Below the pieces are notes generated by a model that searched no databases, was not told the origin of the DNA, and saw only the letters and a list, made by a program, of their open reading frames with translations. Both the position numbers and the translations under genes were made by a program. Below are positions 1 to 17,893 of a stretch of 17,893 nt of DNA, piece by piece. Origin of the DNA: Spirochaetia bacterium (GTDB lineage Bacteria > Spirochaetota > Spirochaetia > Treponematales > Breznakiellaceae); contig BNUW01000040.1 in assembly GCA_025997655.1 (NCBI GenBank), positions 1 to 17,893 on the forward strand. Reading direction: 5' to 3'. The number at the start of each line of letters is the position of its first letter. The stretch's first letter is position 1.

Positions 1-1035
1 AACGGAGACTTTAAAGAAGTACTTTCCATCGGGCGTAGCGTTCGTAGTTGTAAGGGTGATATCCGTGGGTGTTGCGACAAAGGAAACCGGCGATACAATA
101 CTAACATCTACCGGTACGCCGCCGGGAATAGTACCGGAAGCATTGCTGAACCACTCAATCGTTACGGTCTTTCCACCCGTGATACCCTGGGTATAAACCC
201 CAAACTTTGCGCTTCCCGTTACACGTGCCGAAATTGTCCCGACCTGCGGGTTGATATTGAGAACTCTTTTGGGGACCCCGGTATTGTTGGTAACCGGCTT
301 GTTCACAAATGATTCGGTAAAATTGTCGTCCGCATCCAGCAGGTGTTTGGCGCTGTCCGCATTCCGGATATACGTCACCGTTATGTTGTTTTCACCAAAG
401 GCCGCCGGTGAGGACAAGGTCAAGGTGATTGTCGCCCCGTTCACCAGCACGGTAGTTACAGACGGATTGCCCGCTATGCCGCTCACGGTAAAATCGGACG
501 GATCAGGCGTACCGGTGACCGGCTCGGTAATTTCAATCACCAGGCTTACCCCGTCAACGACGGCTGCTTTGAATACCGGAAGCGGCGTGTCCACCTGGAG
601 CTGCCCGACCCCCACAGATGTCAGGCTGCCGACATTCGGCAAATCGCCAACGACGACCCGGAAGTAATAGACGTCGTAGGGGGTTGCCGCCGTGGTGGTG
701 AGCGTGAGGTATGCAGGGGTCGCAGGGTCTGTGGAAAAGGTTACCGGCGATTGGAAATTTACACCGGGGGGCGGAGCTGCGGGAGTCACCCCGGCAGTAT
801 CGCTAAACCACTCAAGCGTTACGGTCTTTGCACCGGTGATGCCGGTCGTTGTTACCGCATAGTTTGCGCTGCCGGGGGTACCGGCGACAACCGGAAGGCT
901 CTGCGGACCGATGGTGGTGACCGTCGGGTTAGGATGGGGAGCATCCCAGGGGACAAGGTCGTGGATAATATTATTGCACCGCGTCAGGGACAGGCCTAGG
1001 GCAAGCAGTAGTAGTAACGCAGATTTGGTTTTCAT
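1..1035 (-). CDS. SwmB-type repeat lipoprotein, partial at 3' end (left copy)
   Basis: This is the mirror copy of the gene at 16859-17893, where the domains are described. It is a probable exported lipoprotein with Cys20 as the lipidation site and immunoglobulin-like beta-strand repeats. The frame reads on the complement from the ATG at 1035-1033 to base 1 without a stop, so the C-terminus lies outside the window. The ATG overlaps the TGA of the OmpA-like gene upstream by four bases, which implies co-transcription. Confidence 0.75.
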   Translation of the reverse strand, partial: MKTKSALLLLLALGLSLTRCNNIIHDLVPWDAPHPNPTVTTIGPQSLPVVAGTPGSANYAVTTTGITGAKTVTLEWFSDTAGVTPAAPPPGVNFQSPVTFSTDPATPAYLTLTTTAATPYDVYYFRVVVGDLPNVGSLTSVGVGQLQVDTPLPVFKAAVVDGVSLVIEITEPVTGTPDPSDFTVSGIAGNPSVTTVLVNGATITLTLSSPAAFGENNITVTYIRNADSAKHLLDADDNFTESFVNKPVTNNTGVPKRVLNINPQVGTISARVTGSAKFGVYTQGITGGKTVTIEWFSNASGTIPGGVPVDVSIVSPVSFVATPTDITLTTTNATPDGKYFFKVSV

Positions 1036-2129
1036 TGTATCCAATCCTCCCCTTCGTTCAGCAGGGTAATCTCCGCCCGGTTGTTTTCGTAGCGGCCTTC
1101 TGCGGTGGCGTTGCTCATCAGGGGTTTCAGGCCGCCCCAGGGCCGGAAATAAATGCGTTTATCCGCTATGTTCTGGCTGCTAAGGGCCTCCAATATGACC
1201 TGTCCCCGCCAGAAGGACAGATCCATTTCCTCCCCAGGACGGCCCTCGGCGGCGACATGGCCCTCCACCTGAATTTTACGGCTCACCGGAACCTGCTTGA
1301 TCGCATTGGCTATCGTCACCAGCCGGGGGTAGTCGGCAGGCACGATCTGATCCTTCCCGTCAATAAAATGGATGTTCCAGACAGTTAGTTTTATGCCCTG
1401 TGGAACTTCTTCAATGGCGATGTCCTTAACATTTTTAAGGGCGGCCTGAAGCGTGGGCAGCGTCGGTATCATTGGCTGAGAGACGGGCCGTACCGGAATA
1501 CGCCGGGGCAGGCGGGGCTTAAAGGTAAGACCCGCCTCGACGGCGGGTATAAAAAAGAGCCCTTCGGCTTCCGGAATCATGTCCACCCCGCCTCCAATAT
1601 GGAGACGGAGGACGGGGACCCGGTAAATTTCCCACACCAGATTAAGCCGAAGGGCGGCTATCAAATTCTGGGCAAAGGTTTCCTTTAGGCTGCCCTCCAG
1701 CCAATCCTTTTCTGTTGGATAGTGGTAGACTTTGTAGAGTATGGCGCCGGCCCCCACTTCCGGTTGTATCCCAAACCCCTTGGGAAGGAGGAAGGTATAG
1801 CCAAACTTGAACAGCAGGGGAAGGAGGTGAAGGTCCTCAACATACATCCGGTAGGGATCTATTCCCGCAAAATGGGTATAGCCGGATTCCAGGGAAAAGG
1901 CGAATTGCCGCCATTCATATCCCAGGGCGGCGCGAAAGGCCGGTTCCGGTTTCAAATATGACCAAAAATCAAAGGGTGCATTGGCAGGAAAGAGGTAATA
2001 CTGGGCCATCCCCTTAATGAAAAAAGGCTGTTCCATCCACTCCACTATCTGGGCTTCGGTCCGAATAGGAAGGGCGAGCAGGATGACAAAGACGAGGCAG
2101 ATTCTTAACAGAACAGGTTTTGCCACCAT
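1032..2129 (-). CDS. OmpA-like outer-membrane protein (left copy)
   Basis: This mirror copy of 15765-16862 encodes the same 365-aa exported protein: signal peptide, probable N-terminal beta-barrel, and OmpA-type C-terminal domain. In this arm it reads leftward, divergent from pepF across a 106-bp gap (2130-2235), and overlaps the following lipoprotein gene by ATGA. See the right copy for residues and the missing aspartate. Confidence 0.8.
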   Translation of the reverse strand: MVAKPVLLRICLVFVILLALPIRTEAQIVEWMEQPFFIKGMAQYYLFPANAPFDFWSYLKPEPAFRAALGYEWRQFAFSLESGYTHFAGIDPYRMYVEDLHLLPLLFKFGYTFLLPKGFGIQPEVGAGAILYKVYHYPTEKDWLEGSLKETFAQNLIAALRLNLVWEIYRVPVLRLHIGGGVDMIPEAEGLFFIPAVEAGLTFKPRLPRRIPVRPVSQPMIPTLPTLQAALKNVKDIAIEEVPQGIKLTVWNIHFIDGKDQIVPADYPRLVTIANAIKQVPVSRKIQVEGHVAAEGRPGEEMDLSFWRGQVILEALSSQNIADKRIYFRPWGGLKPLMSNATAEGRYENNRAEITLLNEGEDWIQ

Positions 2130-2145
2130 AACAACTCTAATAGTA

Positions 2146-2175
2146 AGTATATATCAATGATATTAATATTGGCAA
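2146..2175 (-). promoter_or_regulatory. Putative sigma70-type promoter for the OmpA-like gene (left copy)
   Basis: On the complement strand TTGCCA (5 of 6 to the -35 consensus) is followed after 18 bases by TATACT (5 of 6 to the -10 consensus), about 17 bases before the ATG at 2129. The implied leader is very short. No equally good promoter was found for the divergent pepF gene in the same gap, and pepF has no evident Shine-Dalgarno sequence. Confidence 0.5.
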
Positions 2176-2235
2176 GCGTATTTGTACGGTGGCCGGAGGC
2201 TTACAAAAATGCCCTGTTTGTATTAAATTTGCCTT

Positions 2236-4098
2236 ATGAAAAGAACTTTTACCGGTAGTAATGAGGCCACGCAAATAGGGTCCCTGCCTAAATGGGATCT
2301 TTCTTCTATATATCTGTCATTTGATTCACCGGAGTACCGGCGGGACCTGCGGCAACTCCCGGAAAAGATTGCCGTTTTCCTAAAATTGCTGGAAACGCCC
2401 CTGCCCACCGGCGCCGGAATAGCCGCCGCCCTGCTTGCCCTGATACGGTTCTACGAGGAGGCGGGGGATTTGAGGGAAAATCTTGCGGCATATGCGGAGG
2501 CTGTCTACACCGCCGATACCCGGGACAGCCGGGCTATGGCGGAGATCAACGCCATAGCGTCGGCAGCCCTGCCCCTGGGAAAGGCGGCGGTGATTTTCCG
2601 GAACCGGCTTGTGGAGGCGTTCAAGGAGAACGGTGCGAAGGAGCCTGTGTTGGAGGCCCTGGATACAGAGGCTGCTTTAAAGCCCTACGGGTTTTTTATC
2701 CGGGAAAGCCTGGAAAAAGCGGCTTACCAGATGAGCCCCGACTTAGAGGACCTTGCCAATGATCTCGCCCGGTCCGGGGGTGATGCCTGGGGGCGGCTCC
2801 AGGAGGCGGTTTCCTCCACCGTAACGGCGCTGTGGGATTCGGTTACCGGGGAGCGCAAGACCGTGATTGCCCTGCGGGACCTGGCCCACAACGGCGACCG
2901 CAGTATTCGGGAACGGGCTTACAAGGCGGAGCTTGCGGCGTGGCAATCCATGGAGATACCCCTGGCGGCGTCCCTGAACGGCGTTAAGGGGACCACCCTG
3001 ACGGTGGATAAGCGGCGGGGCTGGAAATCGCCGTTGCAGAAATCCGCCTTCCAGTCCCGGCTGAGCGAAAAGGCATTGGGGGCGCTTATCAGAGAAATGG
3101 AACATTCCCTGCCCCTATTCCGCCGCTACCTGAAATCAAAAGCTTCTTTGCTGGGGGTTAAGGCATGTGCTTTTTATGATCTCTTTGCGCCGGTGGAGTC
3201 AGACCCTCGGTCTGCGGATTCAAAAAAGTGGACCTGGACCGGGGCGACGGAATTCATTATCGAGCAATTCACCGTCTTTGACCCTGACATGGGGGCTTTT
3301 GCCCGGAAGGCCGTTTCCCACTCCTGGATAGACGCCCTTGGCCGGGAGGGGAAAATCGGCGGGGCCTACTGCACAGATTTTCCCCTGGCGGGGGAGTCCC
3401 GGATACTCTGCAACTTCGAGGGGTCCTTCGACTCGGTTTTCACCGTGGCCCACGAATTGGGTCACGCCTGGCATCATGAGCTGATCAAGGACCTCCCCCG
3501 GTTCCGGTCCGCCTACCCCATGACCCTGGCGGAAACGGCGAGCATCTTTGCGGAGACCATCATCTTTGAGGGCGCACTGGGCGCTGCCGCCAGTGACGGC
3601 GCCCGGATCGCCCTTATTGAGGGGAACCTTAAGGACTGCTGTCAGGTTATTGTGGATATCCTTTCCCGGTTTTACTTTGAGACCGCCCTTTTTGAACGCC
3701 GGGACAAGGCGGAACTAAGCGCGGAGGAACTCTGCGCCCTGATGACTGATGCCCAGAAGAAAACCTACGGGGACGGCCTTGACCCCGCGCTGCTCCACCC
3801 CTATATGTGGGCGGTTAAGAGCCACTATTATAACCCCGGCCTGGCGTTTTATAATTACCCCTATGCTTTCGGGCAGCTCTTTTCCCTGGGGCTTTTTGTA
3901 CGGGCCAGGCAGGAGGGCCGGGGGTTCGCCGGAGAGTATAGGGAGATGCTCCGGCTCACCGGGCAGGCGACTGCGGCGGCGGTAGCCAAATCGGCGGGGT
4001 TCGATATTGAGGACGGCGCTTTCTGGCAGGATGGTATCGCCCTTATCGCGGATCGGGTGGCGGAGTTTGAAAAGCTGGCGGGGGGAAAAAAACGGTGA
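2236..4098 (+). CDS. pepF: M3-family oligoendopeptidase (PepF type)
   Basis: This 620-aa protein has the length and layout of M3B zinc oligopeptidases, cytoplasmic enzymes that cut short peptides. The zinc motif HELGH lies at residues 406-410 (context TVAHELGHAWHHE). The third zinc ligand is probably Glu433 in LAETASIFAE, 27 residues after the first His as expected. The C-terminal substrate-binding part has the family's typical SHYYNPGLAFYNYPYAFGQL run. The ATG at 2236 has no clear Shine-Dalgarno sequence (ttgtattaaatttgcctt precedes it), so the start is chosen on homology of the N-terminal region and ORF extent. The stop overlaps the GTG start of gpsA by four bases (GTGA), and with ffh the three genes form a compact operon. 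PepF is the usual name for this family; the precise substrate range cannot be read from sequence. It has a mirror copy at 13796-15658. Confidence 0.92.
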   Translation: MKRTFTGSNEATQIGSLPKWDLSSIYLSFDSPEYRRDLRQLPEKIAVFLKLLETPLPTGAGIAAALLALIRFYEEAGDLRENLAAYAEAVYTADTRDSRAMAEINAIASAALPLGKAAVIFRNRLVEAFKENGAKEPVLEALDTEAALKPYGFFIRESLEKAAYQMSPDLEDLANDLARSGGDAWGRLQEAVSSTVTALWDSVTGERKTVIALRDLAHNGDRSIRERAYKAELAAWQSMEIPLAASLNGVKGTTLTVDKRRGWKSPLQKSAFQSRLSEKALGALIREMEHSLPLFRRYLKSKASLLGVKACAFYDLFAPVESDPRSADSKKWTWTGATEFIIEQFTVFDPDMGAFARKAVSHSWIDALGREGKIGGAYCTDFPLAGESRILCNFEGSFDSVFTVAHELGHAWHHELIKDLPRFRSAYPMTLAETASIFAETIIFEGALGAAASDGARIALIEGNLKDCCQVIVDILSRFYFETALFERRDKAELSAEELCALMTDAQKKTYGDGLDPALLHPYMWAVKSHYYNPGLAFYNYPYAFGQLFSLGLFVRARQEGRGFAGEYREMLRLTGQATAAAVAKSAGFDIEDGAFWQDGIALIADRVAEFEKLAGGKKR

Positions 4099-5177
4099 GT
4101 GTGAATATTTCGATTTTAGGAGCAGGCGCCTGGGGAACGGCGGTGGCAAAGGTACTTGCGGAAAAGGGAAACGATGTGTTGATCTGGAGCCACAGTAAAT
4201 CTACTCTGGAGGACATAAATATATACCATACCAATTCCCGTTATCTGCCCGATGTGATCCTGCCGAATAATCTCCAGGCCTGCGATGATATTCTTGAAGT
4301 GGTGAACGGCAGGGAATACCTCATCCTGGCGGTTCCTTCACTATTTCTGCTGGATACGGTGAAGCAGATTCTGACCTCTCCATCCATACGGGAAGGGGAG
4401 ACTGCCATTGCGGTACTCACCAAGGGCTTCCTCCCTTCTGCGGGAAATACCGCCAAGGGGCCGCGGCTGATCCTGGAAACCCTGGAGGATTACCTGCCGG
4501 GATTTTACCGGCAGTCCCTGGTTTATATCGCCGGGCCCAGCCATGCCGAAGAGGTTTCCCGGGGGAAGATCACCGGCCTTATCGCCGCCAGCGAGAGCGC
4601 AAAAAATTCCATACGGTTCCGGGACCTTTTGAAAAGCCCCCGGCTGCTGGTTTTTTCTTCCTTCGATGTCCGGGGGGTGCAGGTGGCGGCGGCGGCGAAG
4701 AACGTTGTTGCCATCGCCTTTGGGATGCTGGATGCCCTGAAAACCGCCAATTCTTATTTCGGCATGGAGGATGTGTTTGGGGATGGCACCGCATCACTGC
4801 TGCTGGCCGCGGGGCTCAACGAAATACAGACCCTGGGTAAGGCCATGGGGGCAACCCACGCGGAAACCTTCACCTCCATTTCCGGGGTGGGGGATCTGGA
4901 TGTTACCTGCCGCTCCGTATTCGGCAGGAACCGCCGCTTTGGCCGTGAAATTATCGAGAAAAATATTTTGAAGCCCTTCAGTAACCTGGATGATATCATC
5001 GACAGGATCGCCGAGATTGGATATCTGCCCGAGGGGGTGGTTGCGGTCAAGCACGTAAAAGCCCTTGCAGAAAAACTAAAACTAAAGATGCCCATCGCCA
5101 CGGGGCTCTATCAAATACTCAACCGCGAGACCGAGCCGGATGACTTTCTGCGTATCTTCTTAAAAGGAATGGAATAA
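4095..5177 (+). CDS. gpsA: NAD(P)-dependent glycerol-3-phosphate dehydrogenase
   Basis: This 360-aa cytoplasmic enzyme reduces dihydroxyacetone phosphate to sn-glycerol-3-phosphate, the backbone precursor for phospholipids. The N-terminal Rossmann loop is GAGAWG (residues 9-14). AGPSHAEEV (146-154 region) is the family's GPS/T-hA-E-E-V motif. Catalytic and binding residues are present: Lys202-Asn203 (AAAKNV), Asp267 and Thr271 (GVGDLDVT), Arg278-Asn279 (GRNRRFG). The middle segment at about 211-240 differs from the common GLGLGDNTKAAL form and is slightly longer, so this is a divergent lineage variant with an intact active site. The start is GTG at 4095, overlapping the pepF stop, with a purine-rich ribosome-binding run (gggggaaa) just upstream; a second in-frame GTG at 4101 is possible. 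ffh follows after four bases. It has a mirror copy at 12717-13799. Confidence 0.95.
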   Translation: MSVNISILGAGAWGTAVAKVLAEKGNDVLIWSHSKSTLEDINIYHTNSRYLPDVILPNNLQACDDILEVVNGREYLILAVPSLFLLDTVKQILTSPSIREGETAIAVLTKGFLPSAGNTAKGPRLILETLEDYLPGFYRQSLVYIAGPSHAEEVSRGKITGLIAASESAKNSIRFRDLLKSPRLLVFSSFDVRGVQVAAAAKNVVAIAFGMLDALKTANSYFGMEDVFGDGTASLLLAAGLNEIQTLGKAMGATHAETFTSISGVGDLDVTCRSVFGRNRRFGREIIEKNILKPFSNLDDIIDRIAEIGYLPEGVVAVKHVKALAEKLKLKMPIATGLYQILNRETEPDDFLRIFLKGME

Positions 5178-5181
5178 TACT

Positions 5182-6534
5182 ATGTTAGATAAACTAACGG
5201 CAAAAATTTCCGATGCCCTCCGTGTTGTTGCGGGGAAGGCGACGATCACCGAAAAAAACATTGACGATGCGGTGGATGCCATCAAGATGGCCCTGCTGGA
5301 GGCGGATGTAAACCTCCGGGTGGTCCGCCGGTTTGTTAATGCTACTATCGAAGAGGCCAAGGGGGAGAAGGTTCTCCGGGCGGTTGATCCGGGTCAGCAA
5401 TTCGTCAAGATTGTCCATGACAAGCTGACCAGTTATCTAGGGGACACAAAACAAGACCTGCAGCTCAAGGGGCCGGACACTATTTCGGTGATCCTCATGC
5501 TGGGGCTGCAAGGTTCGGGGAAAACCACCAGTTCCGCAAAGCTGGCCCTGCGGCTCAAGAAGGACGGACGCAAACCCCTGTTGGCGGCCTGCGATCTGGT
5601 GCGGCCTGCGGCTATGGAACAGTTGACGGTGTTAGGAAACCAGATCGGCGTGCCGGTGTACAAGGAAGAGGGCGCCAAGGATAGTGTTGCGGTGTTTAAG
5701 GACGCCATGAACCATGCCCGGAAAAACATGCTGGACACCCTTATTGTTGATACCACAGGCCGACTGCAAATAGACGAGCCCATGATGGCGGAACTTTCCC
5801 GGCTCAAGGACGCCGCCAAGCCTGACGAACTGCTTCTGGTGGCGGACTCTATGACCGGCCAGTCCGCGGTGGATATCGCCAAAACCTTTGACGAAAAAAT
5901 CGGCCTCACCGGTGTTATCCTCACCAAGTTTGATTCCGACACCCGTGGTGGCGCGGCGCTGTCCCTTAAGACCATTACCGGCAAGCCCCTCAAGTTTGTG
6001 GGGGTGGGGGAAAGACCTGAGGACTTTGAAGTTTTCCACCCGGAGCGTATGGCCAGCCGCATCCTCGGTATGGGTGATGTGGTAAGCCTGGTGGAAAAAG
6101 CCCAGGAGGTGATCGACCGGAAGGAAGCGGAAGAGCTTCGGAAGAAAATGGAGAAGGAAAACTTCACCCTGGAGGATTATCTGAGCCAAATCCGGTCCAT
6201 GAAGAAGATGGGCTCCCTCCAGTCTATACTGGAAATGGTGCCGGGGATGGCGGGACAGGTCAGCGAAGATGATATCAACAAGGCGGAGCTGAAATATCAT
6301 GAGGCTATTATTTCCTCCATGACCCGGAAGGAACGGGCCAACCACCTGATCATCGGCCCCGCCCGCCGTTCCCGGATTGCACGGGGTTCCGGTACCTCGG
6401 TGGCCGAGGTGGGGAGGCTGCTCAAAAAGTTTGAGAAGATGCGGACCATGATGAAGAAGATGTCCAAAATGAGCAGGAACCCTGCGGCGGCGCAGGCGAT
6501 GTTGGGAAGGATGGGGCAGTTTCAGGGACGGTAA
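5182..6534 (+). CDS. ffh: Signal recognition particle GTPase Ffh (SRP54)
   Basis: This 450-aa protein binds 4.5S RNA and targets ribosomes making membrane proteins to the receptor FtsY. The N domain is at about 1-90. The G domain has G1 GLQGSGKTT (108-116), the DLVRPAA motif (138-144), G3 DTTGR (190-194) and G4 TKFDSD (248-253), the set specific to SRP GTPases. The methionine-rich M domain covers about 320-450, with the RNA-binding signature SRIARGSGTSVAEV and a Met-rich KMRTMMKKMSKM stretch. Length is typical. The start at 5182 is four bases after gpsA, with ggaa/aagga ribosome-binding candidates inside the gpsA end. It is the last gene of the pepF-gpsA-ffh operon. Its final 13 bases overlap, tail to tail, the antitoxin-like gene on the other strand, and no terminator hairpin was seen between them. 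Ffh is normally single-copy and essential, so two identical copies would be very unusual. It has a mirror copy at 11360-12712. Confidence 0.97.
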   Translation: MLDKLTAKISDALRVVAGKATITEKNIDDAVDAIKMALLEADVNLRVVRRFVNATIEEAKGEKVLRAVDPGQQFVKIVHDKLTSYLGDTKQDLQLKGPDTISVILMLGLQGSGKTTSSAKLALRLKKDGRKPLLAACDLVRPAAMEQLTVLGNQIGVPVYKEEGAKDSVAVFKDAMNHARKNMLDTLIVDTTGRLQIDEPMMAELSRLKDAAKPDELLLVADSMTGQSAVDIAKTFDEKIGLTGVILTKFDSDTRGGAALSLKTITGKPLKFVGVGERPEDFEVFHPERMASRILGMGDVVSLVEKAQEVIDRKEAEELRKKMEKENFTLEDYLSQIRSMKKMGSLQSILEMVPGMAGQVSEDDINKAELKYHEAIISSMTRKERANHLIIGPARRSRIARGSGTSVAEVGRLLKKFEKMRTMMKKMSKMSRNPAAAQAMLGRMGQFQGR

Positions 6535-6878
6535 TAGGCAAGCATTTTTTTAACAGGAATTACTGAGTTATTTTCCCAACAAAATCCGAGCGTATTCACC
6601 ATTTGTTTTAATATATCCAAAGAGGGATTTTTCCCTTGTAAGGATTCGGCTTGTTTAGCAAGCTGGTTCAGACCTTTTGAACGAGCTACGTCATTAATTG
6701 CATCAAACATAAGAGTTGTGTTTCCATCTGAAAACATATCTTCAAGATAAAAAGCCATTTCATTTTTTGATTTAAAATCCTCAGCGGCATCCCAATCAGT
6801 AATATCATTATCATTAACGGCCTCAACAGACTTTTGAGTTCTTAGTGTTGTTTTATTTTCCGAAAGTAAAGAATTCAT
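6522..6878 (-). CDS. HigA-like addiction-module antitoxin, altered HTH (left copy)
   Basis: This mirror copy of 11016-11372 encodes the same 118-aa protein, described there. In this arm it reads leftward and its 3' end overlaps the 3' end of ffh by 13 bases. The 58-aa CxxC gene lies four bases upstream of its start. Confidence 0.55.
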   Translation of the reverse strand: MNSLLSENKTTLRTQKSVEAVNDNDITDWDAAEDFKSKNEMAFYLEDMFSDGNTTLMFDAINDVARSKGLNQLAKQAESLQGKNPSLDILKQMVNTLGFCWENNSVIPVKKMLAYYRP

Positions 6879-6882
6879 CTCT

Positions 6883-7059
6883 TTAATCTCCTCTTAATAT
6901 CTTCTGCAGTTTCCCCGCGATCTGGTCCTCAATTTCCTGCATGGCAGCCAGGGTTACTGCGTTGGGAATGTGCACTTTGCCGCATTCGGGGCATATATCC
7001 CCATCATATTCGCCGTCAATCCCGATTCCCGCAACTGCGGTTTCTTTTACTTTATTCAT
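6883..7059 (-). CDS. Small CxxC protein, RelB-like antitoxin fragment (left copy)
   Basis: This mirror copy of 10835-11011 encodes 58 aa with CPECGKVH near the middle; see the right copy. It starts at the complement of 7059-7057 behind a strong ggagggg ribosome-binding site and ends four bases before the HigA-like gene. Confidence 0.6.
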   Translation of the reverse strand: MNKVKETAVAGIGIDGEYDGDICPECGKVHIPNAVTLAAMQEIEDQIAGKLQKILRGD

Positions 7060-7233
7060 ACGATAACCCCTCCATCAAATATACCCCACCCCGTCCGCTC
7101 CGTCCACCTTCCTTGCGCCATCATCACTTTCGCACCACCGACTATCCCACAAAAAGGGACGGCCGTCGTGCTCAGGCAAAAGTGGTGACAGTCACTCCTG
7201 CGCTCCCCACACTAATGTAAGCGATTTGGTTTA
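7060..7233. other. Intergenic gap (left copy), nothing firm
   Basis: This 174-bp gap lies between the CxxC protein gene and the CsgG-like lipoprotein gene. It holds a 10-base palindrome (gacggccgtc), a short inverted repeat gtgac-n-gtcac, and a start-less reading frame. None of these is convincing as a gene or terminator. Confidence 0.6.
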
Positions 7234-7986
7234 TTATAATTTCTCCGAGGCAACACCTACAACTTGTGCTGTTTCTGAATCTAATGCCCTTAAGCGTAAT
7301 CGACGAAGATCACCATCCCCGTCTACCCTTCCAGTTACAATTACACTCGCTCCAGCAATTTTACCGATTGAAGCAGCCGTTTTATCATCCACTTCACCAC
7401 TCACGCCAAAATTTTGTTCCCTACGTAATTGGTCTAACTGGCTTCTATCAGTTATAAAATAACCTTCATTTACCCATATATATTCAAGTTCACCAACAAC
7501 ATATTCTGTTGTGCTTCTATCCTGTGCGGTAATATATACAATAGCAATTCTTGATCTTGGCGGAACATTTTTTAGAGTTTGTTCAGCGGCCCTTGCCAAT
7601 GCTCCTTCTACGCCTTTTGCATTAGCATTGTTACGCCCTGTTACAGAATTGTAAAGTACAACATCTCCAGAAGCCGTTACATTCTGGAAAAGACCATAAA
7701 ATATACTAAGAATGTGGAAACTTCCAGCAACACGTACATTCCTAATATCTATATTTCCTTTAAATCCTTTTCGTTGAGCCTCTTTTTTCAATTCAGAAAT
7801 TGCCTTGTTTTCAAGGGAACTTTTTGAGGCAAAACTGAGTGAAAGCCAACTTTTTGTTACGGATCCTAAAACCTCTATTTCGGTTCGTGCATTGGGGTCT
7901 ATTTGATTTGCTTCCAACGATATACAAGAATTCAGAAGCACAAGTATTCCCAATGAAACAATTAAAACAAGACCTTTTCTTTTCAT
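7234..7986 (-). CDS. CsgG/LpoB-like lipoprotein (left copy)
   Basis: This mirror copy of 9908-10660 encodes a 250-aa probable membrane-anchored lipoprotein (lipobox LNSC, Cys21) with a CsgG/LpoB-like C-terminal region. Details are given for the right copy. The ggagg ribosome-binding site on the complement is just outside the ATG at 7986. Confidence 0.75.
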   Translation of the reverse strand: MKRKGLVLIVSLGILVLLNSCISLEANQIDPNARTEIEVLGSVTKSWLSLSFASKSSLENKAISELKKEAQRKGFKGNIDIRNVRVAGSFHILSIFYGLFQNVTASGDVVLYNSVTGRNNANAKGVEGALARAAEQTLKNVPPRSRIAIVYITAQDRSTTEYVVGELEYIWVNEGYFITDRSQLDQLRREQNFGVSGEVDDKTAASIGKIAGASVIVTGRVDGDGDLRRLRLRALDSETAQVVGVASEKL

Positions 7987-8098
7987 AACATCCTCCGTTA
8001 TTTTGCACCGCCATGGATGACGGTGTATATCAACAAAACCATCATTATTTTTATCAAAATGTCAATTCATTTTTCAAAAAATTTCAAGTTTTTATGGC

Positions 8099-8233
8099 GT
8101 ATAACGTTCTAGGTTTGCGACGTTTTCCGGCGGATAAAGCGGCTTGTCCGCCCGCCGGAAAATGTGTCGGAGCGACCGTTAGGGAGCGGAGACCAAGCCG
8201 CTACCGCGGCGCAGCGCAAACCGTTTGTTAAAC
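8099..8233. other. attC-like nested inverted-repeat element (left copy)
   Basis: This mirror copy of 9661-9795 begins gtataac and ends gttaaac in this orientation. Between these lie ggtttgcg and cgcaaacc plus two further inverted pairs. Read this way the 3' box matches GTTRRRY fully and the 5' box has one deviation, so the orientation of a putative attC site is not settled. Confidence 0.4.
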
Positions 8234-8255
8234 GATGTAAAAACCTGCTACGAAG

Positions 8256-8284
8256 CCGCCCGCATGGACGCGGGCGGTTTTTTT
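8256..8284 (+). terminator. Rho-independent terminator-like hairpin (left copy)
   Basis: Stem ccgcccgc, loop atggac, stem gcgggcgg, then seven T on the + strand. The perfect 8-bp GC stem with a T-tract is a textbook intrinsic terminator for rightward transcription. In this arm all flanking genes (lipoprotein, NHL) are on the minus strand, so it faces the wrong way for them. Confidence 0.7.
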
Positions 8285-8334
8285 CAATTCTGCTTTATTT
8301 CCGTACAACAGACATATCAGTAAGTACATTGTTG

Positions 8335-9638: not shown

Positions 9639-9660
9639 CTTCGTAGCAGGTTTTTACATC

Positions 9661-9795: not shown

Positions 9796-9816
9796 GCCAT
9801 AAAAACTTGAAATTTT

Positions 9817-9846
9817 TTGAAAAATGAATTGACATTTTGATAAAAA
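9817..9846 (+). promoter_or_regulatory. Weak candidate promoter for the CsgG-like lipoprotein
   Basis: TTGAAA (9817-9822, 5 of 6) is followed after 18 bases by TAAAAA (9841-9846, 4 of 6) in an AT-rich stretch upstream of the lipoprotein gene. A perfect TTGACA at 9829-9834 has no matching -10 box at 16-18 bases. This region is the most promoter-like part of the gap. A mirror copy lies at 8048-8077 on the complement. Confidence 0.28.
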
Positions 9847-9907
9847 TAATGATGGTTTTGTTGATATACACCGTCATCCATGGCGGTGCAAAATAACGGA
9901 GGATGTT

Positions 9908-10660
9908 ATGAAAAGAAAAGGTCTTGTTTTAATTGTTTCATTGGGAATACTTGTGCTTCTGAATTCTTGTATATCGTTGGAAGCAAATCAAATAGACCCC
10001 AATGCACGAACCGAAATAGAGGTTTTAGGATCCGTAACAAAAAGTTGGCTTTCACTCAGTTTTGCCTCAAAAAGTTCCCTTGAAAACAAGGCAATTTCTG
10101 AATTGAAAAAAGAGGCTCAACGAAAAGGATTTAAAGGAAATATAGATATTAGGAATGTACGTGTTGCTGGAAGTTTCCACATTCTTAGTATATTTTATGG
10201 TCTTTTCCAGAATGTAACGGCTTCTGGAGATGTTGTACTTTACAATTCTGTAACAGGGCGTAACAATGCTAATGCAAAAGGCGTAGAAGGAGCATTGGCA
10301 AGGGCCGCTGAACAAACTCTAAAAAATGTTCCGCCAAGATCAAGAATTGCTATTGTATATATTACCGCACAGGATAGAAGCACAACAGAATATGTTGTTG
10401 GTGAACTTGAATATATATGGGTAAATGAAGGTTATTTTATAACTGATAGAAGCCAGTTAGACCAATTACGTAGGGAACAAAATTTTGGCGTGAGTGGTGA
10501 AGTGGATGATAAAACGGCTGCTTCAATCGGTAAAATTGCTGGAGCGAGTGTAATTGTAACTGGAAGGGTAGACGGGGATGGTGATCTTCGTCGATTACGC
10601 TTAAGGGCATTAGATTCAGAAACAGCACAAGTTGTAGGTGTTGCCTCGGAGAAATTATAA
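9908..10660 (+). CDS. Lipoprotein with CsgG/LpoB-like C-terminal region
   Basis: This 250-aa protein has a basic start (MKRK), a hydrophobic segment and the lipobox LNSC with Cys21, so it is probably cleaved by signal peptidase II and lipid-anchored. Residues 30-130 form a region I do not recognise. Residues about 130-250 resemble the CsgG/LpoB (penicillin-binding-protein activator) fold: SRIAIVYITAQDRST starts the first strand and helix, followed by FITDRSQLDQLRREQNFGVS, then AASIGKIAGASVIVTGRVDG and a final beta-strand region. Family members assemble in or contact the outer membrane and periplasm; paralogues of this form are common in treponemes, as far as I recall. The ribosome-binding site ggagg (9898-9902) is five bases from the ATG, so the start is secure. 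The exact role is unknown: it could be an LpoB-like activator or a component of an outer-membrane complex. A mirror copy lies at 7234-7986. Confidence 0.78.
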   Translation: MKRKGLVLIVSLGILVLLNSCISLEANQIDPNARTEIEVLGSVTKSWLSLSFASKSSLENKAISELKKEAQRKGFKGNIDIRNVRVAGSFHILSIFYGLFQNVTASGDVVLYNSVTGRNNANAKGVEGALARAAEQTLKNVPPRSRIAIVYITAQDRSTTEYVVGELEYIWVNEGYFITDRSQLDQLRREQNFGVSGEVDDKTAASIGKIAGASVIVTGRVDGDGDLRRLRLRALDSETAQVVGVASEKL

Positions 10661-10834
10661 TAAACCAAATCGCTTACATTAGTGTGGGGAGCGCAGGAGT
10701 GACTGTCACCACTTTTGCCTGAGCACGACGGCCGTCCCTTTTTGTGGGATAGTCGGTGGTGCGAAAGTGATGATGGCGCAAGGAAGGTGGACGGAGCGGA
10801 CGGGGTGGGGTATATTTGATGGAGGGGTTATCGT
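10661..10834. other. Intergenic gap (right copy), possible weak promoter
   Basis: This is the 174-bp gap before the CxxC gene. TGGACG (10788-10793), 17 bases, then TATATT (10811-10816) is a weak promoter candidate, but the implied transcript start falls inside the ribosome-binding site. The segment also has a GC-rich 39-codon frame without an ATG (10703-10819). Nothing here is firm. Confidence 0.5.
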
Positions 10835-11011
10835 ATGAATAAAGTAAAAGAAACCGCAGTTGCGGGAATCGGGATTGACGGCGAATATGATGGGGATATA
10901 TGCCCCGAATGCGGCAAAGTGCACATTCCCAACGCAGTAACCCTGGCTGCCATGCAGGAAATTGAGGACCAGATCGCGGGGAAACTGCAGAAGATATTAA
11001 GAGGAGATTAA
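10835..11011 (+). CDS. 58-aa CxxC protein, possible RelB-like antitoxin fragment
   Basis: This small gene has a strong ribosome-binding site (ggagggg, 10821-10827, seven bases before ATG). The product has CPECGKVH at residues 23-30, a possible half zinc site (Cys23, Cys26, His30), followed by IPNAVTLAAMQEIEDQIAG (31-49). The N-A-x-T-x-x-A-M-x-E element resembles the linker and dimer segment of some RelB/DinJ-type antitoxins that carry an N-terminal Cys pair, but the usual C-terminal toxin-wrapping part is missing. It ends four bases before the HigA-like gene, whose ribosome-binding site (ggag) lies inside this gene's last codons, so the two are probably translationally coupled. No toxin gene is adjacent. 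Family assignment is tentative; that it is a real gene is well supported by signals and by the pairing. A mirror copy lies at 6883-7059. Confidence 0.62.
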   Translation: MNKVKETAVAGIGIDGEYDGDICPECGKVHIPNAVTLAAMQEIEDQIAGKLQKILRGD

Positions 11012-11015
11012 AGAG

Positions 11016-11372
11016 ATGAATTCTTTACTTTCGGAAAATAAAACAACACTAAGAACTCAAAAGTCTGTTGAGGCCGTTAATGATAATGATATTACTGATT
11101 GGGATGCCGCTGAGGATTTTAAATCAAAAAATGAAATGGCTTTTTATCTTGAAGATATGTTTTCAGATGGAAACACAACTCTTATGTTTGATGCAATTAA
11201 TGACGTAGCTCGTTCAAAAGGTCTGAACCAGCTTGCTAAACAAGCCGAATCCTTACAAGGGAAAAATCCCTCTTTGGATATATTAAAACAAATGGTGAAT
11301 ACGCTCGGATTTTGTTGGGAAAATAACTCAGTAATTCCTGTTAAAAAAATGCTTGCCTATTACCGTCCCTGA
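11016..11372 (+). CDS. HigA-like addiction-module antitoxin with shortened HTH
   Basis: This 118-aa protein has the pattern of the small antitoxins usually paired with HigB/RelE-like killer proteins: TDWDAAEDFKSKNEMAFYLE (27-46) matches the common FDxAxYLxxExxIaxYLexA start, and DGNTTLMFDAINDVARSKGL (51-70) the ALGDVARAKGM helix. The normal form continues IAKETGLSRESLYKALxxxGNPxFDT; here LAKQAESLQGKNPSLD (73-88) is about nine residues shorter and lacks most of the recognition helix. It may not bind DNA normally. The last residues (about 107-118) have no family resemblance, and the stop lies 13 bases inside the end of ffh on the other strand. The gene is preceded by the 58-aa CxxC gene, not by a recognisable toxin. 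I read it as a decaying or diverged antitoxin. A mirror copy lies at 6522-6878. Confidence 0.58.
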   Translation: MNSLLSENKTTLRTQKSVEAVNDNDITDWDAAEDFKSKNEMAFYLEDMFSDGNTTLMFDAINDVARSKGLNQLAKQAESLQGKNPSLDILKQMVNTLGFCWENNSVIPVKKMLAYYRP

Positions 11373-12712
11373 AACTGCCCCATCCTTCCCAACATCGCCT
11401 GCGCCGCCGCAGGGTTCCTGCTCATTTTGGACATCTTCTTCATCATGGTCCGCATCTTCTCAAACTTTTTGAGCAGCCTCCCCACCTCGGCCACCGAGGT
11501 ACCGGAACCCCGTGCAATCCGGGAACGGCGGGCGGGGCCGATGATCAGGTGGTTGGCCCGTTCCTTCCGGGTCATGGAGGAAATAATAGCCTCATGATAT
11601 TTCAGCTCCGCCTTGTTGATATCATCTTCGCTGACCTGTCCCGCCATCCCCGGCACCATTTCCAGTATAGACTGGAGGGAGCCCATCTTCTTCATGGACC
11701 GGATTTGGCTCAGATAATCCTCCAGGGTGAAGTTTTCCTTCTCCATTTTCTTCCGAAGCTCTTCCGCTTCCTTCCGGTCGATCACCTCCTGGGCTTTTTC
11801 CACCAGGCTTACCACATCACCCATACCGAGGATGCGGCTGGCCATACGCTCCGGGTGGAAAACTTCAAAGTCCTCAGGTCTTTCCCCCACCCCCACAAAC
11901 TTGAGGGGCTTGCCGGTAATGGTCTTAAGGGACAGCGCCGCGCCACCACGGGTGTCGGAATCAAACTTGGTGAGGATAACACCGGTGAGGCCGATTTTTT
12001 CGTCAAAGGTTTTGGCGATATCCACCGCGGACTGGCCGGTCATAGAGTCCGCCACCAGAAGCAGTTCGTCAGGCTTGGCGGCGTCCTTGAGCCGGGAAAG
12101 TTCCGCCATCATGGGCTCGTCTATTTGCAGTCGGCCTGTGGTATCAACAATAAGGGTGTCCAGCATGTTTTTCCGGGCATGGTTCATGGCGTCCTTAAAC
12201 ACCGCAACACTATCCTTGGCGCCCTCTTCCTTGTACACCGGCACGCCGATCTGGTTTCCTAACACCGTCAACTGTTCCATAGCCGCAGGCCGCACCAGAT
12301 CGCAGGCCGCCAACAGGGGTTTGCGTCCGTCCTTCTTGAGCCGCAGGGCCAGCTTTGCGGAACTGGTGGTTTTCCCCGAACCTTGCAGCCCCAGCATGAG
12401 GATCACCGAAATAGTGTCCGGCCCCTTGAGCTGCAGGTCTTGTTTTGTGTCCCCTAGATAACTGGTCAGCTTGTCATGGACAATCTTGACGAATTGCTGA
12501 CCCGGATCAACCGCCCGGAGAACCTTCTCCCCCTTGGCCTCTTCGATAGTAGCATTAACAAACCGGCGGACCACCCGGAGGTTTACATCCGCCTCCAGCA
12601 GGGCCATCTTGATGGCATCCACCGCATCGTCAATGTTTTTTTCGGTGATCGTCGCCTTCCCCGCAACAACACGGAGGGCATCGGAAATTTTTGCCGTTAG
12701 TTTATCTAACAT
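11360..12712 (-). CDS. ffh: Signal recognition particle GTPase Ffh (right copy)
   Basis: This mirror copy of 5182-6534 has an identical 450-aa translation with all SRP GTPase motifs and the Met-rich M domain. It reads leftward as the last gene of the operon whose first gene is at 15658. Its 3' end converges on and overlaps the HigA-like gene. Confidence 0.95.
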   Translation of the reverse strand: MLDKLTAKISDALRVVAGKATITEKNIDDAVDAIKMALLEADVNLRVVRRFVNATIEEAKGEKVLRAVDPGQQFVKIVHDKLTSYLGDTKQDLQLKGPDTISVILMLGLQGSGKTTSSAKLALRLKKDGRKPLLAACDLVRPAAMEQLTVLGNQIGVPVYKEEGAKDSVAVFKDAMNHARKNMLDTLIVDTTGRLQIDEPMMAELSRLKDAAKPDELLLVADSMTGQSAVDIAKTFDEKIGLTGVILTKFDSDTRGGAALSLKTITGKPLKFVGVGERPEDFEVFHPERMASRILGMGDVVSLVEKAQEVIDRKEAEELRKKMEKENFTLEDYLSQIRSMKKMGSLQSILEMVPGMAGQVSEDDINKAELKYHEAIISSMTRKERANHLIIGPARRSRIARGSGTSVAEVGRLLKKFEKMRTMMKKMSKMSRNPAAAQAMLGRMGQFQGR

Positions 12713-12716
12713 AGTA

Positions 12717-13799
12717 TTATTCCATTCCTTTTAAGAAGATACGCAGAAAGTCATCCGGCTCGGTCTCGCGGTTGAGTATTTGATAGAGCCCCGTGGCGAT
12801 GGGCATCTTTAGTTTTAGTTTTTCTGCAAGGGCTTTTACGTGCTTGACCGCAACCACCCCCTCGGGCAGATATCCAATCTCGGCGATCCTGTCGATGATA
12901 TCATCCAGGTTACTGAAGGGCTTCAAAATATTTTTCTCGATAATTTCACGGCCAAAGCGGCGGTTCCTGCCGAATACGGAGCGGCAGGTAACATCCAGAT
13001 CCCCCACCCCGGAAATGGAGGTGAAGGTTTCCGCGTGGGTTGCCCCCATGGCCTTACCCAGGGTCTGTATTTCGTTGAGCCCCGCGGCCAGCAGCAGTGA
13101 TGCGGTGCCATCCCCAAACACATCCTCCATGCCGAAATAAGAATTGGCGGTTTTCAGGGCATCCAGCATCCCAAAGGCGATGGCAACAACGTTCTTCGCC
13201 GCCGCCGCCACCTGCACCCCCCGGACATCGAAGGAAGAAAAAACCAGCAGCCGGGGGCTTTTCAAAAGGTCCCGGAACCGTATGGAATTTTTTGCGCTCT
13301 CGCTGGCGGCGATAAGGCCGGTGATCTTCCCCCGGGAAACCTCTTCGGCATGGCTGGGCCCGGCGATATAAACCAGGGACTGCCGGTAAAATCCCGGCAG
13401 GTAATCCTCCAGGGTTTCCAGGATCAGCCGCGGCCCCTTGGCGGTATTTCCCGCAGAAGGGAGGAAGCCCTTGGTGAGTACCGCAATGGCAGTCTCCCCT
13501 TCCCGTATGGATGGAGAGGTCAGAATCTGCTTCACCGTATCCAGCAGAAATAGTGAAGGAACCGCCAGGATGAGGTATTCCCTGCCGTTCACCACTTCAA
13601 GAATATCATCGCAGGCCTGGAGATTATTCGGCAGGATCACATCGGGCAGATAACGGGAATTGGTATGGTATATATTTATGTCCTCCAGAGTAGATTTACT
13701 GTGGCTCCAGATCAACACATCGTTTCCCTTTTCCGCAAGTACCTTTGCCACCGCCGTTCCCCAGGCGCCTGCTCCTAAAATCGAAATATTCACACTCAC
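12717..13799 (-). CDS. gpsA: Glycerol-3-phosphate dehydrogenase (right copy)
   Basis: This mirror copy of 4095-5177 has an identical 360-aa translation, including the GAGAWG loop and Lys202/Asp267/Arg278. It has a GTG start on the complement at 13799, overlapping the pepF stop, with ffh four bases downstream. Confidence 0.94.
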   Translation of the reverse strand: MSVNISILGAGAWGTAVAKVLAEKGNDVLIWSHSKSTLEDINIYHTNSRYLPDVILPNNLQACDDILEVVNGREYLILAVPSLFLLDTVKQILTSPSIREGETAIAVLTKGFLPSAGNTAKGPRLILETLEDYLPGFYRQSLVYIAGPSHAEEVSRGKITGLIAASESAKNSIRFRDLLKSPRLLVFSSFDVRGVQVAAAAKNVVAIAFGMLDALKTANSYFGMEDVFGDGTASLLLAAGLNEIQTLGKAMGATHAETFTSISGVGDLDVTCRSVFGRNRRFGREIIEKNILKPFSNLDDIIDRIAEIGYLPEGVVAVKHVKALAEKLKLKMPIATGLYQILNRETEPDDFLRIFLKGME

Positions 13800-15658
13800 C
13801 GTTTTTTTCCCCCCGCCAGCTTTTCAAACTCCGCCACCCGATCCGCGATAAGGGCGATACCATCCTGCCAGAAAGCGCCGTCCTCAATATCGAACCCCGC
13901 CGATTTGGCTACCGCCGCCGCAGTCGCCTGCCCGGTGAGCCGGAGCATCTCCCTATACTCTCCGGCGAACCCCCGGCCCTCCTGCCTGGCCCGTACAAAA
14001 AGCCCCAGGGAAAAGAGCTGCCCGAAAGCATAGGGGTAATTATAAAACGCCAGGCCGGGGTTATAATAGTGGCTCTTAACCGCCCACATATAGGGGTGGA
14101 GCAGCGCGGGGTCAAGGCCGTCCCCGTAGGTTTTCTTCTGGGCATCAGTCATCAGGGCGCAGAGTTCCTCCGCGCTTAGTTCCGCCTTGTCCCGGCGTTC
14201 AAAAAGGGCGGTCTCAAAGTAAAACCGGGAAAGGATATCCACAATAACCTGACAGCAGTCCTTAAGGTTCCCCTCAATAAGGGCGATCCGGGCGCCGTCA
14301 CTGGCGGCAGCGCCCAGTGCGCCCTCAAAGATGATGGTCTCCGCAAAGATGCTCGCCGTTTCCGCCAGGGTCATGGGGTAGGCGGACCGGAACCGGGGGA
14401 GGTCCTTGATCAGCTCATGATGCCAGGCGTGACCCAATTCGTGGGCCACGGTGAAAACCGAGTCGAAGGACCCCTCGAAGTTGCAGAGTATCCGGGACTC
14501 CCCCGCCAGGGGAAAATCTGTGCAGTAGGCCCCGCCGATTTTCCCCTCCCGGCCAAGGGCGTCTATCCAGGAGTGGGAAACGGCCTTCCGGGCAAAAGCC
14601 CCCATGTCAGGGTCAAAGACGGTGAATTGCTCGATAATGAATTCCGTCGCCCCGGTCCAGGTCCACTTTTTTGAATCCGCAGACCGAGGGTCTGACTCCA
14701 CCGGCGCAAAGAGATCATAAAAAGCACATGCCTTAACCCCCAGCAAAGAAGCTTTTGATTTCAGGTAGCGGCGGAATAGGGGCAGGGAATGTTCCATTTC
14801 TCTGATAAGCGCCCCCAATGCCTTTTCGCTCAGCCGGGACTGGAAGGCGGATTTCTGCAACGGCGATTTCCAGCCCCGCCGCTTATCCACCGTCAGGGTG
14901 GTCCCCTTAACGCCGTTCAGGGACGCCGCCAGGGGTATCTCCATGGATTGCCACGCCGCAAGCTCCGCCTTGTAAGCCCGTTCCCGAATACTGCGGTCGC
15001 CGTTGTGGGCCAGGTCCCGCAGGGCAATCACGGTCTTGCGCTCCCCGGTAACCGAATCCCACAGCGCCGTTACGGTGGAGGAAACCGCCTCCTGGAGCCG
15101 CCCCCAGGCATCACCCCCGGACCGGGCGAGATCATTGGCAAGGTCCTCTAAGTCGGGGCTCATCTGGTAAGCCGCTTTTTCCAGGCTTTCCCGGATAAAA
15201 AACCCGTAGGGCTTTAAAGCAGCCTCTGTATCCAGGGCCTCCAACACAGGCTCCTTCGCACCGTTCTCCTTGAACGCCTCCACAAGCCGGTTCCGGAAAA
15301 TCACCGCCGCCTTTCCCAGGGGCAGGGCTGCCGACGCTATGGCGTTGATCTCCGCCATAGCCCGGCTGTCCCGGGTATCGGCGGTGTAGACAGCCTCCGC
15401 ATATGCCGCAAGATTTTCCCTCAAATCCCCCGCCTCCTCGTAGAACCGTATCAGGGCAAGCAGGGCGGCGGCTATTCCGGCGCCGGTGGGCAGGGGCGTT
15501 TCCAGCAATTTTAGGAAAACGGCAATCTTTTCCGGGAGTTGCCGCAGGTCCCGCCGGTACTCCGGTGAATCAAATGACAGATATATAGAAGAAAGATCCC
15601 ATTTAGGCAGGGACCCTATTTGCGTGGCCTCATTACTACCGGTAAAAGTTCTTTTCAT
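13796..15658 (-). CDS. pepF: M3-family oligoendopeptidase (right copy)
   Basis: This mirror copy of 2236-4098 has an identical 620-aa translation with HELGH at 406-410. It is the first gene of the leftward operon and is divergent from the OmpA-like gene across a 106-bp gap (15659-15764). Confidence 0.91.
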   Translation of the reverse strand: MKRTFTGSNEATQIGSLPKWDLSSIYLSFDSPEYRRDLRQLPEKIAVFLKLLETPLPTGAGIAAALLALIRFYEEAGDLRENLAAYAEAVYTADTRDSRAMAEINAIASAALPLGKAAVIFRNRLVEAFKENGAKEPVLEALDTEAALKPYGFFIRESLEKAAYQMSPDLEDLANDLARSGGDAWGRLQEAVSSTVTALWDSVTGERKTVIALRDLAHNGDRSIRERAYKAELAAWQSMEIPLAASLNGVKGTTLTVDKRRGWKSPLQKSAFQSRLSEKALGALIREMEHSLPLFRRYLKSKASLLGVKACAFYDLFAPVESDPRSADSKKWTWTGATEFIIEQFTVFDPDMGAFARKAVSHSWIDALGREGKIGGAYCTDFPLAGESRILCNFEGSFDSVFTVAHELGHAWHHELIKDLPRFRSAYPMTLAETASIFAETIIFEGALGAAASDGARIALIEGNLKDCCQVIVDILSRFYFETALFERRDKAELSAEELCALMTDAQKKTYGDGLDPALLHPYMWAVKSHYYNPGLAFYNYPYAFGQLFSLGLFVRARQEGRGFAGEYREMLRLTGQATAAAVAKSAGFDIEDGAFWQDGIALIADRVAEFEKLAGGKKR

Positions 15659-15718
15659 AAGGCAAATTTAATACAAACAGGGCATTTTTGTAAGCCTCCG
15701 GCCACCGTACAAATACGC

Positions 15719-15748
15719 TTGCCAATATTAATATCATTGATATATACT
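15719..15748 (+). promoter_or_regulatory. Putative sigma70-type promoter for the OmpA-like gene (right copy)
   Basis: TTGCCA at 15719-15724, an 18-base AT-rich spacer, then TATACT at 15743-15748. Transcription would start near 15755, about ten bases before the ATG at 15765, leaving only a weak tagag as ribosome-binding site. The mRNA may be nearly leaderless, or the true start may differ. Confidence 0.5.
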
Positions 15749-15764
15749 TACTATTAGAGTTGTT

Positions 15765-16862
15765 ATGGTGGCAAAACCTGTTCTGTTAAGAATCTGCCTC
15801 GTCTTTGTCATCCTGCTCGCCCTTCCTATTCGGACCGAAGCCCAGATAGTGGAGTGGATGGAACAGCCTTTTTTCATTAAGGGGATGGCCCAGTATTACC
15901 TCTTTCCTGCCAATGCACCCTTTGATTTTTGGTCATATTTGAAACCGGAACCGGCCTTTCGCGCCGCCCTGGGATATGAATGGCGGCAATTCGCCTTTTC
16001 CCTGGAATCCGGCTATACCCATTTTGCGGGAATAGATCCCTACCGGATGTATGTTGAGGACCTTCACCTCCTTCCCCTGCTGTTCAAGTTTGGCTATACC
16101 TTCCTCCTTCCCAAGGGGTTTGGGATACAACCGGAAGTGGGGGCCGGCGCCATACTCTACAAAGTCTACCACTATCCAACAGAAAAGGATTGGCTGGAGG
16201 GCAGCCTAAAGGAAACCTTTGCCCAGAATTTGATAGCCGCCCTTCGGCTTAATCTGGTGTGGGAAATTTACCGGGTCCCCGTCCTCCGTCTCCATATTGG
16301 AGGCGGGGTGGACATGATTCCGGAAGCCGAAGGGCTCTTTTTTATACCCGCCGTCGAGGCGGGTCTTACCTTTAAGCCCCGCCTGCCCCGGCGTATTCCG
16401 GTACGGCCCGTCTCTCAGCCAATGATACCGACGCTGCCCACGCTTCAGGCCGCCCTTAAAAATGTTAAGGACATCGCCATTGAAGAAGTTCCACAGGGCA
16501 TAAAACTAACTGTCTGGAACATCCATTTTATTGACGGGAAGGATCAGATCGTGCCTGCCGACTACCCCCGGCTGGTGACGATAGCCAATGCGATCAAGCA
16601 GGTTCCGGTGAGCCGTAAAATTCAGGTGGAGGGCCATGTCGCCGCCGAGGGCCGTCCTGGGGAGGAAATGGATCTGTCCTTCTGGCGGGGACAGGTCATA
16701 TTGGAGGCCCTTAGCAGCCAGAACATAGCGGATAAACGCATTTATTTCCGGCCCTGGGGCGGCCTGAAACCCCTGATGAGCAACGCCACCGCAGAAGGCC
16801 GCTACGAAAACAACCGGGCGGAGATTACCCTGCTGAACGAAGGGGAGGATTGGATACAATGA
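15765..16862 (+). CDS. OmpA-like outer-membrane protein with N-terminal beta-barrel
   Basis: This 365-aa protein has a signal peptide at 1-26 (cleavage likely after TEA). Residues about 30-205 are rich in aromatic, alternating beta-strand segments (LGYEWRQFAFSLESGYTHF, FGIQPEVGAGAILYKVYHY), consistent with an outer-membrane barrel. A proline-rich linker (206-226) leads to an OmpA-type C-terminal domain at about 245-358: IQVEGHVAAEG (286-296), LSFWRGQ (304-310), and NATAEGRYENNRAEITLL (340-357), which matches the family ending NxTxeGRaxNRRVEI. Arg308, the conserved peptidoglycan-binding arginine, is present, but the aspartate of the usual GHTD motif is Ala293. That could reflect a non-diaminopimelate wall (treponemes use ornithine) or a lost wall contact. 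It probably links outer membrane and cell wall. The stop overlaps the next lipoprotein's start (ATGA), suggesting a two-gene envelope operon. A mirror copy lies at 1032-2129. Confidence 0.82.
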   Translation: MVAKPVLLRICLVFVILLALPIRTEAQIVEWMEQPFFIKGMAQYYLFPANAPFDFWSYLKPEPAFRAALGYEWRQFAFSLESGYTHFAGIDPYRMYVEDLHLLPLLFKFGYTFLLPKGFGIQPEVGAGAILYKVYHYPTEKDWLEGSLKETFAQNLIAALRLNLVWEIYRVPVLRLHIGGGVDMIPEAEGLFFIPAVEAGLTFKPRLPRRIPVRPVSQPMIPTLPTLQAALKNVKDIAIEEVPQGIKLTVWNIHFIDGKDQIVPADYPRLVTIANAIKQVPVSRKIQVEGHVAAEGRPGEEMDLSFWRGQVILEALSSQNIADKRIYFRPWGGLKPLMSNATAEGRYENNRAEITLLNEGEDWIQ

Positions 16863-17893
16863 AAACCAAATCTGCGTTACTACTACTGCTTGCCCTAGGC
16901 CTGTCCCTGACGCGGTGCAATAATATTATCCACGACCTTGTCCCCTGGGATGCTCCCCATCCTAACCCGACGGTCACCACCATCGGTCCGCAGAGCCTTC
17001 CGGTTGTCGCCGGTACCCCCGGCAGCGCAAACTATGCGGTAACAACGACCGGCATCACCGGTGCAAAGACCGTAACGCTTGAGTGGTTTAGCGATACTGC
17101 CGGGGTGACTCCCGCAGCTCCGCCCCCCGGTGTAAATTTCCAATCGCCGGTAACCTTTTCCACAGACCCTGCGACCCCTGCATACCTCACGCTCACCACC
17201 ACGGCGGCAACCCCCTACGACGTCTATTACTTCCGGGTCGTCGTTGGCGATTTGCCGAATGTCGGCAGCCTGACATCTGTGGGGGTCGGGCAGCTCCAGG
17301 TGGACACGCCGCTTCCGGTATTCAAAGCAGCCGTCGTTGACGGGGTAAGCCTGGTGATTGAAATTACCGAGCCGGTCACCGGTACGCCTGATCCGTCCGA
17401 TTTTACCGTGAGCGGCATAGCGGGCAATCCGTCTGTAACTACCGTGCTGGTGAACGGGGCGACAATCACCTTGACCTTGTCCTCACCGGCGGCCTTTGGT
17501 GAAAACAACATAACGGTGACGTATATCCGGAATGCGGACAGCGCCAAACACCTGCTGGATGCGGACGACAATTTTACCGAATCATTTGTGAACAAGCCGG
17601 TTACCAACAATACCGGGGTCCCCAAAAGAGTTCTCAATATCAACCCGCAGGTCGGGACAATTTCGGCACGTGTAACGGGAAGCGCAAAGTTTGGGGTTTA
17701 TACCCAGGGTATCACGGGTGGAAAGACCGTAACGATTGAGTGGTTCAGCAATGCTTCCGGTACTATTCCCGGCGGCGTACCGGTAGATGTTAGTATTGTA
17801 TCGCCGGTTTCCTTTGTCGCAACACCCACGGATATCACCCTTACAACTACGAACGCTACGCCCGATGGAAAGTACTTCTTTAAAGTCTCCGTT
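16859..17893 (+). CDS. SwmB-type repeat lipoprotein, partial at 3' end
   Basis: 345 codons are open to the window edge. The start ATG overlaps the OmpA-like TGA and has a good ribosome-binding site (ggggagg, 16842-16848). The N-terminus MKTKSALLLLLALGLSLTRC gives a lipobox ending at Cys20 (LTRC), acceptable under relaxed spirochaetal rules. Residues about 59-130 and 281-345 are copies of one beta-rich repeat; both carry GITGxKTVTxEWFS, and a 46-base DNA stretch within them matches at 39 positions by hand count. Between them, about 154-247 resembles a SwmB-like domain (VDGVSLVIEITEPV ... NGATITLTLSSPAAFGENNITVTYI). Such Ig-like repeats are typical of surface proteins. It is probably exposed on or under the outer membrane with the OmpA-like partner. 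The C-terminus and total number of repeats are outside the window. A mirror copy lies at 1-1035. Confidence 0.8.
   Translation, partial: MKTKSALLLLLALGLSLTRCNNIIHDLVPWDAPHPNPTVTTIGPQSLPVVAGTPGSANYAVTTTGITGAKTVTLEWFSDTAGVTPAAPPPGVNFQSPVTFSTDPATPAYLTLTTTAATPYDVYYFRVVVGDLPNVGSLTSVGVGQLQVDTPLPVFKAAVVDGVSLVIEITEPVTGTPDPSDFTVSGIAGNPSVTTVLVNGATITLTLSSPAAFGENNITVTYIRNADSAKHLLDADDNFTESFVNKPVTNNTGVPKRVLNINPQVGTISARVTGSAKFGVYTQGITGGKTVTIEWFSNASGTIPGGVPVDVSIVSPVSFVATPTDITLTTTNATPDGKYFFKVSV

Follow-up and report, generated by a model that had tools for sequence, protein, structure and literature searches.

A mirror-image contig in a draft Spirochaetia genome is very probably a fold-back artefact of whole-genome amplification

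The window analysed here, a stretch of 17,893 nucleotides from a draft genome of a Spirochaetia bacterium, taken to be a termite-gut spirochaete, reads the same from both ends over nearly its whole length. We interpret it, with high confidence, as one chromosomal segment that was traversed twice through a fold-back chimera, the chimera having originated in whole-genome amplification, most likely MDA. As sequence the palindrome is real, but as biology it is very probably false. The window is the entire contig C40 (17893 bases) of the draft, referred to as G000, and no slice of a longer contig. This draft comprises 402 contigs and 2.74 Mb at a completeness of 69.7%, and its last contig, C402, is 1001 bases long.

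The initial annotation had described a palindrome with 8.9-kb arms and a 93-base loop, and this description proved to be exact. Each arm has 8900 nt (1-8900 on the left, 8994-17893 on the right); the two are reverse complements of one another at 100%, and 93 nt separate them. When the window was compared with its own reverse complement, 71 positions were mismatched, and every one of these lay inside 8901-8993. There are zero differences between the two copies, and the second segment is inverted relative to the first. Chance is excluded as the source of this arrangement. The loop itself (8901-8993, plus strand) is 93 bases of non-palindromic sequence that forms a coding part of an NHL-repeat gene. 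As had also been noted, both outer ends of C40 stop at the same mirrored base, and a search of the draft found no contig overlapping the outer end.

The claim that the genes are present twice as mirror images holds for the complete genes of the arms. Read from the window alone, the NHL-repeat protein (8864-9559, plus strand) has a false N-terminus, the 5' part of its gene lying on a different contig, C120. It is followed on the plus strand by genes for a CsgG-like lipoprotein-like protein (9908-10660; mirror 7234-7986, minus strand) and an HI1420-type probable addiction-module antidote protein (11016-11372; mirror 6522-6878, minus strand). Three genes then lie on the minus strand, with mirror copies on the plus strand: ffh, encoding the signal recognition particle GTPase (11360-12712; mirror 5182-6534), gpsA, encoding glycerol-3-phosphate dehydrogenase (12717-13799; mirror 4095-5177), and a gene for an M3-family peptidase (13796-15658; mirror 2236-4098). 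The arm is completed on the plus strand by a gene for an OmpA-family protein (15765-16862; mirror 1032-2129, minus strand) and by an open frame for a lipoprotein-like product (16850-17893; placed here by mirroring the copy observed at 1-1044, minus strand), which continues past the contig end and is cut at the same base in both arms. The draft contains two copies of ffh, both of them on C40. Among four congeners, ffh is a single-copy gene in three, and the fourth gave no match at the cut-off.

Use of the palindrome centre as a query against the draft identified one further contig with identical sequence at that place, C120. The overlap between C120 and the window spans exactly 127 bases at 100% (8893-9019, plus strand; identical to C120:1-127, minus strand) and reaches the very end of C120. 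Upstream of 8893, the window folds into the left arm; C120 carries the NHL gene on, in frame, to an ATG. Continuation of this gene upstream of 8901 without folding back had been set beforehand as a test of the fold-back interpretation, and it is this continuation that is found, in frame, on C120. C120 and the right arm together encode a single open frame of 349 residues from the ATG (352 from stop to stop), which corresponds to an NHL-repeat lipoprotein-like protein, the N-terminus encoded on C120 being lipoprotein-like. Because C120 and the right arm form one unbroken NHL gene, we judge from these sequences that the real chromosome order is C120 (reverse complement), loop and right arm, and that the left arm is probably the same DNA walked backwards. 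The left arm (1-8900, minus strand), a 100% reverse complement of 8994-17893, is accordingly judged to be a spurious copy made of right-arm DNA, since the NHL sequence of C120 runs on into the loop and the right arm. The right arm (8994-17893, plus strand) is judged to be genuine chromosome, as it joins C120 via the loop as one open gene and as its ffh-gpsA-peptidase block is collinear in the related loci L029 and L031 (among the 7 of 83 compared loci that were listed). In another relative, MS499-42 (L030, 8120-11352), the gene order does not fully match that of the arm, because the aligned sequence goes directly from ffh to the peptidase gene, with the gpsA stretch skipped. The unrearranged junction (C120, loop, right arm) and the fold-back junction therefore coexist in the same assembly.

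The point at which the sequence folds back is marked by a short inverted microhomology. Eight bases at 8893-8900 (plus strand), TCCAGAGG, are common to the window and C120 and are likely to be the priming site of the fold-back, with a partner, CCTCTGGA, at 8994-9001 (plus strand); the normal sequence around the junction thus reads TCCAGAGG, then 93 bases, then CCTCTGGA. The microhomology alone proves little, because 8-base inverted repeats are common background here: the joined sequence (16.5 kb) contains 144 word pairs whose spacers measure 20-300 bases. For the same reason, the fold-back site looks like a microhomology that is there by chance, and not like a site of recombination. We propose that a 3' end would have been freed inside the NHL gene while the genome was being amplified, most likely by MDA, and would have paired over the 8 complementary bases, 93 bases apart, either with its own strand in a snap-back or with a displaced strand nearby that it primed. 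Extension would then have yielded molecules composed of the reversed arm, the loop and the arm. To an assembler working at k=127, the 127 shared bases (8893-9019) would probably have appeared as a graph node where the normal and the fold-back paths merge, the former arriving through C120 and the latter through the reversed arm. The path through the reversed arm would have been output as one contig, and C120 would have been left ending at the node. Both arms would then be one edge of the graph, and for this reason both would end at the same mirrored base.

To place C40 in the context of its assembly, 80 contig stretches from the draft were considered; 10 of these (short contigs) consisted of N throughout and were dropped, and 63 of the remaining 70 were whole contigs. 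Two of these 63 other contigs are themselves whole-contig palindromes, namely C80 (L026, 1-11462; arms of 5610 and a loop of 242 bases) and C100 (L128, 1-9177; arms of 4463 and a loop of 251 bases). Together with the 127-base overlap and the intact gene on C120, they support the earlier proposal that a fold-back chimera is the likeliest origin of the window. Searches of the draft with the loops of C80 and C100 found for neither a partner contig with the identical loop sequence; for C100, a match of 82% to C125 was also returned. Of the 70 unmasked contigs, 11 contain exact inverted repeats of at least 30 bases, and in 9 of these 11 an arm touches the contig end. We also took the ends of the window and of the 63 whole unmasked contigs and matched them against the window and the 70 unmasked stretches. 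Exactly 127 bases were shared in 14 matches, which represent 8 distinct contig pairs, C120 and the window among them. Further matches were of 126 bases (7), of 46-125 bases (12) and of at least 300 bases (6), the last being the three palindromes matching themselves. Sharing of exactly 127 bases is probably the branch-point trace of a de Bruijn assembly with a final k of 127. C100 has, at each of its outer ends, 127 bases in common with the end of C209.

The same inverted-repeat test on related loci detected none in 80 (1.12 Mb; the best 80 of 155 loci), many of which were cut from longer contigs, so that whole-contig palindromes could be missed there. Within the genus, inverted repeats were found in 1 of 20 stretches of a one-contig congener (G001; 30-base arms), in 1 of 20 stretches of the draft G003, and in 2 of the 18 unmasked stretches of the draft G002 (2 of 20 being masked); in G002 and G003, one repeat each reaches the contig end. 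The pattern of inverted repeats is therefore not unique to G000, since these two drafts also show a few. The contig-end repeats, of 115 bases in G003 (L193, 18262-19760) and 31 bases in G002 (L220, 12621-14187), resemble the fold-back pattern on a smaller scale. Among the best 80 of 155 loci, the named relatives with the closest Ffh proteins are Spirochaetia bacterium MS495-2 (96%) and MS499-42 (95%).

Inverted chimeras have been described as the main artefact of MDA (PMC1855051). Among 475 MDA chimeras, 85% were inverted, with complementarity of 2-21 nt at most junctions, and hairpin self-priming was judged to be no major route to their formation (Lasken and Stockwell 2007, PMC1855051). The window resembles these chimeras in that its join is inverted, has 8 nt of complementarity between partners 93 nt apart and is accompanied by the normal junction; unlike those chimeras, which were single reads, it is a contig put together by assembly, and its arms measure 8.9 kb. 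For the window, priming on a displaced strand close by would serve as well as hairpin self-priming. Single-cell genomes of gut bacteria from Reticulitermes speratus were produced by MDA and assembled with SPAdes (k 21-127), contigs above 1 kb being kept, and were deposited under accessions BNTM-BOCE; mean chimeric-read rates of 3.6-8.2% were given for E. coli and mock-community genomes (Aoki et al. 2022, PMC9579161). The accessions of MS495-2 and MS499-42 fall alphabetically inside this range, and MS499-41 is named elsewhere as a genome of that survey (PMC12887300). The survey includes Spirochaetia, used a final word of k=127 and kept contigs above 1 kb, and we infer that G000 is akin to it. 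The relatives and the artefact pattern together suggest that G000 was amplified by MDA, and SPAdes is the probable assembly program. Exactly mirrored contigs in single-cell genomes have already been reported as artefacts: in those of Yellowstone cyanobacteria, they were considered very likely to be assembly artefacts and were removed (PMC12755884). As in those contigs, the first half of C40 is mirrored exactly in its second; the passage describing them leaves the junction untraced, whereas for C40 the sister contig C120 shows the normal junction.

A biological origin would call for a real and very recent inverted duplication, carried by a fraction of the chromosome copies in the cell or population and perhaps produced by fold-back replication in vivo at that 8-base match. 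Such an event, too, would leave arms that are identical and a junction with microhomology, but the ordinary junction of C120, loop and right arm is present in the same assembly, C40 shows no distinct outer flanks, as both its ends stop at the same base, and two of the 63 other contigs examined are palindromes unrelated to it. We therefore regard such a duplication as very unlikely, and it is very doubtful that any chromosome copies carry a genuine inverted duplication of ffh and gpsA alongside the normal arrangement. Alternatively, the fold-back could have arisen at a step other than MDA, for example by snap-back in library end repair or as a join made by the assembler alone. The sequence by itself is silent on the step, the MDA origin of G000 is drawn from its relatives and artefact pattern, and palindromic contigs in Mycobacterium bovis drafts, which inflated gene counts, were ascribed to likely assembly error (PMC9455707). 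However, frequent inverted chimeras are a known signature of MDA (PMC1855051), and a branch of exactly one 127-base word implies that the graph still contained words from the fold-back when the last k was reached, which makes a join by the assembler alone less likely. A source outside MDA is, on this evidence, improbable.

An invertible 93-base segment in the NHL gene, serving phase variation and misassembled as a palindrome, would be in keeping with the 8-base inverted repeats that flank the loop, and its inversion would truncate the NHL gene. Such repeats are background here, however; beyond C40 and C120, no contig containing the loop was listed when the draft was searched with the palindrome centre, and inversion alone would not be expected to flank the loop with right-arm sequence on either side inside a single 127-base word. 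We consider an invertible segment to be exceedingly improbable. Linear replicons of Borrelia, which are also spirochaetes, have hairpin telomeres, and reads through a hairpin end give palindromes. Unlike these telomeres, the window has a 93-base asymmetric coding loop at its centre, and the chromosome continues into C120; a hairpin telomere was rejected, as the chromosome does not end at the palindrome centre.

If the window is a fold-back chimera, as we favour, its consequences extend to uses of the draft as a whole. The palindromic contigs of this draft double essential genes and inflate the assembly size, and they could mislead surveys of copy number or duplication. A case like that of C40 can be identified without reads, by comparing a contig with its own reverse complement and by finding a sister contig that shares exactly k bases at the loop.

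Positions 8994-11359 of the window, together with the final 3.5 kb of the reverse complement of C120, had matches in none of 83 ffh-bearing related loci (blastn, E 1e-20). Because no related locus matches, the stretch encoding the NHL, CsgG-like and antidote-like proteins looks, from these comparisons, like accessory DNA adjoining the ffh block, which is conserved. An Rfam scan at the gathering threshold and a tRNA scan of the window gave no matches. The antidote-like gene (6522-6878; mirror 11016-11372) adjoins ffh, and the gap on its other side (6879-7233), where a partner might be expected, holds no listed frame of at least 80 residues.
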